Origin: Powellomyces hirtus
Lineage: Eukaryota > Chytridiomycota > Chytridiomycetes > Spizellomycetales > Powellomycetaceae
Direction: 5' to 3'
Length of the DNA stretch: 64,000 nucleotides
Assembly: GCA_025526995.1 (NCBI GenBank)
Contig: JAHLKG010000018.1
Coordinates: forward strand, 310,001 to 374,000
Part shown: positions 42,045-44,364 of the stretch, piece by piece
Layout: each line of letters starts with the position of its first letter
Position numbering within the stretch: position 1 is the first letter of the stretch
Notes under the pieces: generated by a model
Database searches by the model: none
Told to the model about the DNA's origin: nothing
What the model saw: the letters and a program-made list of their open reading frames with translations, nothing else
Program-made: the position numbers and the translations under genes

Positions 42045-44364
42045 CTACAGGTCTGCCAACTGTTTAGCGTCATCGTCGGTGTATCCGAGCAGATAAAGCA
42101 CGTTACGAAGACTGGTTTGGTTGATTCTCGCGCGGGCCTAGAAGCACGAATGGTTTATGTCAGAAGCCATTGAAGGGGAGAAACGCACGCGGTGTGCGCA
42201 CTACCTCTTTTTGCACTTTTGGTTTAGCATTGAAAGCAATGCCCAGACCAGCTGCCGCCAGCATCCAGAGATCATTGGCACCATCACCGACAGCGATGAC
42301 CTTAAATGAATATAGGTTGCGGTGTTTACTGTATGGTTCAGAGACTATATTTTCGCAAGAAACTCACCTGTTCAGGTCCTATGGATTCGGCTTGCGCAAT
42401 AACCTCTAGGAGCTCGGCTTTTCTCATCCCATCCACTATAGGGCCATGCGTCTCTCCAGTCAGTGTTTGTCCGTCGGCCGTAACCTTAAGCTGATGGAAG
42501 TACAGAGATGCTCAGAGCAAAGCCCGCATCAAATCCAAGCAGGGCATGCCAAATCGTTACCTGGTTAGCAAACGCATAGTCAAGTCCCAAAAGATTCTTG
42601 ACATGCAAGGCAAGCGGCATGAATCCTCCAGAGATGACAGCGAGTTTGAATCCGAGTCGCTTGAGAGCCTTGCACAAGAAATGCGCACCCTCGGTGAACG
42701 TGAGCTGTGTCTTAACGGTTTCCAGAACAGAGGCTGGAGTGCCCTTGAGGAGACGGACACGTTGTCGGAGGGACTCCTTGAAGTCAATTTCACCATTCAT
42801 TGCAGATTCGGTGATTTTCTGTGAGGAGGCATTTTGATTCAGCCAAGAGGTCGAGTGCAGCAAGAACGAGAGTCGGTTGGGCAGGATTTTCTTACCGCCA
42901 CTTCCTCAACCACACCGGCATGCTTGGCAATCTCGTCGATGACTTCCTGCTGAATGAGCGTGGAGTCCATATCGAAGATGACCAATCGCTTGTGACTGCG
43001 GAACACGTCGTTCAACTGAAGCGCAACGTCTGTACCGTGTTCCATACTGAGCTGGAAAAGTGCAGCTCGGAACTGATCGAAGTCGACTTCTGGCGGTACA
43101 CTGAGTCTGTACTCAATTGAGCAGAGACGTGAGCCAGCGGCGGAGAGTCGGGTCATCTTTTCGACCGAAATCCGCTCGTCAAGCAATAAGCGAGTCCAGA
43201 CGTGAAGGAAACGAGAGGACAGTCCGTTCTGGTTCAGAACGGTGGCGGTGTACTTTATGCGGTCTTTGTATGGTGCGTCTTCCAGAGAGCTTTCCACTGG
43301 ATCTCCCTTTGTGGCATCCTGAACATCAAAGAACAGAGTGGCGTCCCATTTGCGAGCCGATTCGGCAAGAGCTCTGAAGATGTCCACGTTCTCGGAGCCC
43401 AGTCGAATGAGGCATCCAAAGGTGACGTTGTGGTACAGTCGGGACAAGACAAAATCGTCCATTTCACAATTGTAGGTGGCGAGATTCTCGAGGACTGCAT
43501 CGATGATATCGGTTCCGTGAGGGCCCGTCATGGTCACAAGCAGCTTTTGCTGTGGCAGCAGCGTCGATGGTGGGAACCATGTGTCTTCTTTGGAAAGGCT
43601 TGATGAGGTTTTGGATCGTGGGAAAGTCAGGCCGTTCTCAGTGAGGATCGGACTTGGCGGTGGGGAGTCTGACTGCAGCATCGCTATGGATGTGCCGCTG
43701 ACTTCCTCTATCAGTTGCTTCTTCAGTGACGACAAGTGATCGGATTTGTAGAACTTCTTGGTCGTAAGACGAAGCAGGTAATGTTCGCTTAATCGTAAAC
43801 CAGAATGACGATCGTTCTTCTTCAAAATCTTCGTAATGCCAGTGTAGTTGAGAAACACAAAGTTCTCCAGTTTTACAACGTCCTGCAACAGTTGGTTGGC
43901 CCACGCCATCTCTACTCGTTGTCTAGCGAGCTTGCCATCAGTCTTCTCGCTTGCAATGCCACTACGCAACTGAAACCGCTTTGTCAGCTCGTTAGCTTCT
44001 CCTTCATAGAGAGCAGCAAACTTCTCCACTTCCGCATCGAGAAGGCGGAAGAACTTTGCAACAGTGGGTAGCAACACAGAAGCACGCGACTCGAAAACAG
44101 CGGCAAAGTCGTCATCTCCAGAGGTAGCTGACTCTTGGAATGCAGTGGTCGACGTCAGGCTTCGGGGTTTGATTTCATTTTTGATGAACGCTTTCAAATG
44201 GACATAATCGACGCAGTTTGCTGCCCATAATGGCGAAAGCCCCGCTCGTCGCTCTGTCAGATATCTTCATATAGAGACGGCACATTTAGCAACGCAGAAC
44301 CAAAGCCAAACAGGAGACAGGTGTCCGGTATGCGACATGCTAATTCATACCTTCCAAACTTCAT
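42045..44364 (-). CDS. SPX-ACT-ACT-phosphoserine phosphatase fusion
   Basis: The C-terminal third is a SerB/Ser2-type HAD phosphatase, which dephosphorylates O-phosphoserine to serine. It has motif [17 protein letters not shown], then [18 protein letters not shown], motif II Ser in LAVISGGF, motif [18 protein letters not shown], and the end [17 protein letters not shown] (stop 42045). Upstream are two ACT-like modules ([20 protein letters not shown] and [15 protein letters not shown]), as in mycobacterial SerB2. The N-terminus is an SPX domain. A 14-bp first exon (MKFGR, 44351-44364) splices over about 86 bp to [13 protein letters not shown] and [11 protein letters not shown], followed by [20 protein letters not shown], the lysine-rich inositol-polyphosphate-binding helix. 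The continuous exon 44264-42896 covers SPX, both ACT modules and motif I, so the fusion is not an assembly of neighbours. About 660 residues versus 309 in yeast Ser2. Confidence 0.92.

Follow-up and report, generated by a model that had tools for sequence, protein, structure and literature searches.

We analysed a 64,000-nucleotide stretch of DNA (the window) from Powellomyces hirtus, a chytrid of the order Spizellomycetales. A gene at 42045..44364 of the window, on the minus strand, most likely encodes the organism's phosphoserine phosphatase, carrying an SPX domain at its N terminus. Phosphoserine phosphatase catalyses the final reaction of serine synthesis. We assigned the splice sites by eye from the sequence. 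There are six exons, and the five introns (86, 77, 70, 67, and 67 nucleotides) all have GT..AG ends. The spliced coding sequence of 1953 nucleotides encodes 650 amino acids plus a stop codon, and the protein is identical, from end to end, to a 650-amino-acid database protein of P. hirtus (P0001). Exon 1 (44351..44364) has just 14 nucleotides and encodes MKFG plus two nucleotides of the next codon. Splicing it to exon 2 restores the SPX start MKFG-R-YL, as the initial annotation of this locus had proposed. Exon 2 (42896..44264) is open over the SPX domain, a linker, both ACT-like domains, and motif I of the HAD phosphatase; the initial annotation had described this unbroken exon with the correct coordinates and motif string. 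Exon 3 (42561..42818) contains HAD motif II (SGGF), exon 4 (42368..42490) contains the lysine of motif III, and exon 5 (42205..42300) contains motif IV (GDGAND), with the motifs placed by alignment. Exon 6 (42045..42137) ends with the stop codon.

The domains are as follows, all on the minus strand. The SPX domain (amino acids 1-195; 43694..44364, including intron 1) matches Pfam's SPX family (PF03105, 49.9 bits, cut-off 27.8). It is followed by a linker (196-241; 43556..43693), where the predicted local distance difference test score (pLDDT) of the structure model is below 50 at 199-212 and 214-237. The first ACT-like domain (242-325; 43304..43555) matches ACT_6 at 22.0 bits, which is slightly under the cut-off of 23, and the second (335-425; 43004..43276) was placed by comparing the structure model to known structures. 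The HAD phosphoserine phosphatase domain (428-640; 42078..42997, including introns 2-5) matches Pfam's Hydrolase family (PF00702, 80.7 bits, cut-off 26.4) and NCBIfam's serB equivalog (TIGR00338, 270.5 bits, cut-off 144.15). A sequence search of the PDB matched Mycobacterium avium SerB (3p96, 210.6 bits) to the C-terminal two thirds of the protein, and it matched rice SPX1 and SPX2, as well as an "uncharacterized" protein (5ijp), to roughly its first 190 residues. We take 5ijp to be the SPX domain of Chaetomium Gde1, as a related entry (5ijj) carries that title. In the predicted structure, the SPX part matches the folds of the SPX domains of XPR1 and Gde1, and the remainder matches mycobacterial SerB2. 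The SerB2 matches (the first seven structures) span residues 242-650, with two ACT domains ahead of the HAD domain.

To compare the protein with its relatives, we used three lists: the best 120 of 859 relatives (E ≤ 0.001, with the P. hirtus protein as the query), the best 120 of 4277, and the best 120 of 7996. Unless another list is named, "relatives" below means the best 120 of the 859. The catalytic residues of HAD motifs I-IV are conserved: D436, D438, and S524 are present in 120/120 relatives, and K571, D594, and D598 are present in 119/120, with one gap each. PF03105 is present in 109 of the 120, as given by precomputed Pfam assignments. These recurring architectures, along with the matches to Pfam and NCBIfam, confirm that the fusion of SPX and phosphoserine phosphatase is real.

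One might worry that the fusion is an artefact, with read-through wrongly joining two adjacent genes. Our gene model was read from the genomic sequence, and some of the database models for this family are visibly faulty (P0105 and P0119, discussed below). But the SPX domain, the ACT-like domains, and HAD motif I all lie within one uninterrupted exon, and the same 109 relatives have the identical order of domains. Also, the relatives with this order include P0083, whose name resembles that of a transcript-assembly entry. We therefore give the artefact almost no credence. Chance or a chimeric assembly is ruled out, as the architecture recurs in many separately named species, mostly with 100% coverage of the query.

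We can also reject the idea that the fusion is an oddity of one lineage, because it is widespread across early-diverging fungi. SPX-bearing relatives include chytrids, Piromyces, Allomyces, Paraphysoderma, Coemansia, and Syncephalis, and also Mucorales, Mortierella, Endogone, Rhizophagus, and other mycorrhizal fungi. The initial annotation had suggested a search for proteins with both SPX and phosphatase domains, and had allowed that the fusion might turn out to be well described; the list of relatives does contain many such proteins. Among the matches listed, a pattern for the SPX helix is present in 113 of the 120 relatives of the P. hirtus protein, versus none of the 120 proteins from a query with yeast Ser2, and in 2 of the 109 proteins that were first seen in the third list. 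Likewise, no SPX domain is assigned to any of the 120 yeast Ser2 relatives that were listed (lengths limited to 170-541 amino acids).

When the query was restricted to lengths of about 181-574 amino acids (the third list), 117 of the best 120 relatives lacked PF03105, and some of these were partial or faulty models. Proteins without SPX come from the Gigasporaceae, Lichtheimia, Circinella, Fennellomyces, Dimargaris, Tieghemiomyces, several chytrids, Amoeboaphelidium (P0304 and P0334), two Pezizomycetes (Rhizina and Kalaharituber), red algae, and Desulfuromonadales. The sample of Dikarya comprises yeasts plus Rhizina and Kalaharituber, and any SPX-bearing proteins from Dikarya that are outside the length limits would escape listing. 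Among the named species of the three lists (the best 120 each), we saw none from the Basidiomycota.

Some of these absences may be genuine losses, and others may lie in the gene models. Seven phosphoserine phosphatases of 403-430 amino acids from Gigaspora, Dentiscutata, and Racocetra (P0109, P0111, P0112, P0120, P0250, P0252, and P0258) lack SPX, while their relatives keep it. These are database proteins only, and one is marked as partial, but they are consistent between species and could reflect a clean loss of SPX in one lineage (the Gigasporaceae). On the other hand, P0105 (Lobulomyces) lacks SPX and is nearly identical to P0119 (Clydaea), which has most of SPX in a broken-looking model. 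This pair is a sign that the loss of SPX in gene tables can be an annotation error. P0259 (Caulochytrium), a partial model, still has the SPX helix.

We then asked how often the fusion arose. We built a tree of HAD domains from 71 rows that we picked by hand among 349 proteins, and we counted P0259 as SPX-bearing and omitted P0105 from the count of changes. Fungi and aphelids lie on one side of a branch (support of 99/91). The distribution of SPX on this tree requires 8-9 changes, but the number of losses is soft, because the base of the fungi is poorly settled and ten rows are on long branches. A tree with all of the SPX-bearing rows in a single clade was rejected (approximately unbiased test, p-AU = 0.0006). 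In a tree of SPX domains, the 32 from phosphatases group together (98/97) apart from four reference SPX domains, which are the only references and include two close paralogues from rice. Furthermore, distances between SPX domains correlate with distances between HAD domains (r = 0.776; 0 of 2000 permutations were as high). Because the SPX domains form one group, the distances are correlated, and the clade of SPX-bearing HAD domains is rejected, the simplest reading is that SPX and the phosphatase were joined a single time, close to the base of the fungal tree, and that SPX was then lost repeatedly. Repeated independent fusion is disfavoured by the grouping of the SPX domains and by the correlation of the distances.

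The fusion may perhaps predate the branching of the aphelids. P0083, a transcriptome row whose Partr prefix we take to indicate the aphelid Paraphelidium, has SPX. Its placement is weakly supported in the HAD tree (88/76), and in the SPX tree it sits beside a chytrid (83/71) on a long branch. This is one aphelid row with SPX, and another aphelid, Amoeboaphelidium, lacks it, so the earlier date depends on a single row.

How well conserved is the SPX domain? We aligned the SPX domains of 62 rows that were hand-picked from the relatives. Over amino acids 1-195, just ten positions are invariant in 62/62 (Y25, K29, K33, L80, E138, N144, K150, K153, K154, and K186), and the mean frequency of the majority residue is 0.54. 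We also made our own alignment of the 120 relatives and kept the 105 in which SPX is largely complete, dropping 15 rows where at most 130 of 175 SPX positions are filled. In this alignment, Y25 and K29 are present in 105/105, and K150, K153, and K154 are present in 104/105, with one gap. Y25 (codon 44204-44206) and K29 (44192-44194) lie in the pocket helix (44192..44206), and the three lysines form a cluster (43817..43831), both on the minus strand. We presume that K29, K153, and K154 are pocket lysines. Y25 aligns with Y22 of Gde1 and Vtc4, N144 aligns with N123 of Vtc4, and K150 aligns with K129 of Vtc4. According to one study, Y22, N123, and K129 of Vtc4 are in or near the ligand pocket (PMC10167327), and the equivalents of all three are among the invariant positions.

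These results bear on whether the SPX domain might be a functionless relic that was carried along by the fusion. The repeated loss of SPX on the trees, including in the rows from Dikarya and Gigasporaceae, would fit a relic. But across 32 species, the SPX domains have drifted to a median pairwise identity of 36%, and the pocket positions stayed invariant despite this divergence, so we consider a relic to be very improbable.

Instead, the conserved pocket suggests that the binding of inositol pyrophosphates (PP-InsPs) to the SPX domain gates the phosphatase, with either sign. We put the probability of this at roughly 65%. In phosphate-replete cells, PP-InsPs would bind the pocket around Y25, K29, K150, K153, and K154. 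Binding would alter the packing of SPX, which is attached by a flexible linker, against SPX itself or against the ACT-ACT-HAD portion, and these changed SPX-SPX or SPX-enzyme contacts would alter the output of the phosphatase. Several findings weigh against gating. In the structure model, the orientation of SPX relative to the enzyme is loose (the predicted template modelling score, pTM, is 0.55, and the linker is disordered), so the contact surface is undefined. Several living lineages lack SPX, so any control by SPX is not universal. Four of the invariant residues (K33, L80, E138, and K186) have no role assigned in the sources that we used. And Vtc4's Y19, which is also named in PMC10167327, corresponds to a cysteine in the P. 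hirtus protein (C in 40/62 and F in 17/62).

The main rival to gating is docking or localisation: SPX would recruit the phosphatase to a partner or compartment in a PP-InsP-dependent way, with no change in catalysis. A long disordered linker and an undefined orientation of the domains would suit a tethered docking module, and known SPX domains work by binding partners (PMC10167327 and PMC7587432). However, our results do not suggest any partner, and the neighbouring genes that we scanned give no clear hint. We consider docking to be unlikely.

If PP-InsPs do gate the enzyme, then we lean slightly towards the PP-InsP-bound form being active and the PP-InsP-free form, in phosphate-starved cells, being restrained. 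In other words, the phosphate-releasing end of serine synthesis would run when phosphate is plentiful. We propose this direction by analogy to the VTC complex, in which PP-InsP binding breaks an inhibitory contact between SPX domains (PMC10167327). Alternatively, gating could have the opposite sign: the enzyme would become active during phosphate starvation, as PP-InsPs fall, and phosphoserine would be emptied for its phosphate. The reaction does yield phosphate, and the sequence does not fix the direction, but the phosphate from phosphoserine flux is probably small compared to polyphosphate stores. As for precedents, in Cryptococcus neoformans PP-IP5 promotes PHO pathway activation by binding to Pho81 (PMC7587432), so the sign varies between SPX proteins, but the VTC precedent runs the other way (PMC10167327). 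Overall, the opposite sign seems doubtful.

We also searched the P. hirtus genome with profiles and found a match to PPIP5K (78.3 bits), IPK-family matches at two places, a match to SerC above its cut-off (486.7 bits), and a match to part of the PGDH profile that is below its cut-off (247.1 bits). Because of these matches, the kinds of enzymes that make PP-InsPs, and the serine pathway, are likely to be present. The fusion gene is the only strong match to SerB. Its exons score 104.7, 46.4, and 44.0 bits, compared with 38.2 bits for the next-highest place; as this search was done exon by exon, no single place attains the family's cut-off. There are ten SPX matches at E ≤ 0.001, of which some are side by side and one is the phosphatase gene itself.

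The initial annotation had also proposed that an amino acid gates the enzyme through its ACT domains. Serine binding by M. tuberculosis SerB2 is reported to require Gly18 and Gly108 in its ACT domains (PMC4270767). Serine also shifts the oligomeric state of this enzyme, but the shift is absent in the M. avium enzyme (PMC10564941). The bacterial loop in ACT1 has the motif GxDxPG, but the P. hirtus protein has GPHGTD instead (43508-43525, minus strand), and by a pattern count, 119 of the 120 relatives have GxHGTD. Because this loop is replaced across the fungal family, the idea of serine gating is weakened, and serine control of the fungal enzyme by the GxDxPG-type route through ACT1 is not supported. 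Among the matches listed, the 109 newcomers in the third list include 27 with GxHGTD, some of them SPX-less, and 34 with GxDxPG (for example, from Galdieria and Desulfuromonas); the others fit neither pattern. Thus, GxHGTD stands in for GxDxPG in the fungal phosphoserine phosphatases, whether or not they carry SPX.

The region around the fusion gene has a few other features. Two tandem CACGTC hexamers (44555-44566 of the window, on the gene's strand) lie about 200 base pairs upstream of the start codon, and CACGTG, which we looked for as a sign of a phosphate-type promoter, is absent within 800 base pairs upstream of the gene. About 2.8 kilobases from the fusion gene is an open reading frame from the inositol monophosphatase family (PF00459, 241 bits; 47122-48147, plus strand). 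Its nearness to an SPX fusion gene is probably a coincidence. It is flanked by open reading frames for CoaE, or dephospho-CoA kinase (46356-47096), and ribosomal protein S4e (48246-49274), in that order and both on the minus strand.

We did not find a description of a fusion of SPX and phosphoserine phosphatase when we searched the open-access full-text literature specifically for it, as judged mostly from listings; most subscription papers lie outside it. In the main texts of PMC8401276 (on mycorrhizal nutrient signalling), PMC12653687 (a review of fungal phosphate), and PMC8298701, which name familiar SPX proteins, the word "phosphoserine" is absent. So the initial annotation's view that the fusion is undescribed holds for this literature, but the domain tables of databases already show the pair of domains on these proteins. 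Our results suggest that phosphate signalling and the supply of serine have long been connected, in a way that has apparently gone unreported.

In this family, SPX is attached to an enzyme of amino-acid biosynthesis in fungal lineages that are only distantly related, and its pocket residues are intact. If PP-InsPs gate the enzyme, then phosphate signalling directly reaches the supply of serine and one-carbon units in early-diverging fungi. Among these are mycorrhizal fungi, and how they manage phosphate matters in practice. The initial annotation had suggested that one-carbon and sphingolipid supply may be coupled to phosphate through this enzyme, and we treat that coupling as putative. More broadly, this could be an ancestral fungal circuit, in which PP-InsPs, as messengers of phosphate status, directly gate the step of serine synthesis that releases phosphate. 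In this scenario, SPX and the phosphatase were joined a single time around the base of the fungal tree, perhaps even before the aphelids split off; many early-diverging lineages (rumen fungi, Mucorales, and many mycorrhizal fungi) retain the fusion, and it was lost toward the Dikarya. We see the odds of this broader scenario as about even. If it is true, the loss of the circuit toward the Dikarya would explain why work on yeasts and moulds never met it.

SPX domains are known from phosphate transporters, the VTC complex that makes polyphosphate, Pho81, Gde1, and plant regulators, which have roles in handling phosphate. The SPX domains of Gde1, Vtc4, rice SPX1 and SPX2, and XPR1 share their fold and pocket residues with the SPX domain of the phosphatase, but they sit on partners other than phosphoserine phosphatase. 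Mycobacterial SerB2 (5jlp and 3p96) shares the ACT-ACT-HAD arrangement with the P. hirtus protein but lacks its SPX domain, and at the ACT1 loop, 3p96 has GVDQPG where the fungal family has GxHGTD. Ser2 of Saccharomyces cerevisiae is 51% identical to the catalytic part over 228 amino acids, but it has just 309 amino acids and a short N terminus, versus 650 amino acids and an SPX domain for the chytrid protein.
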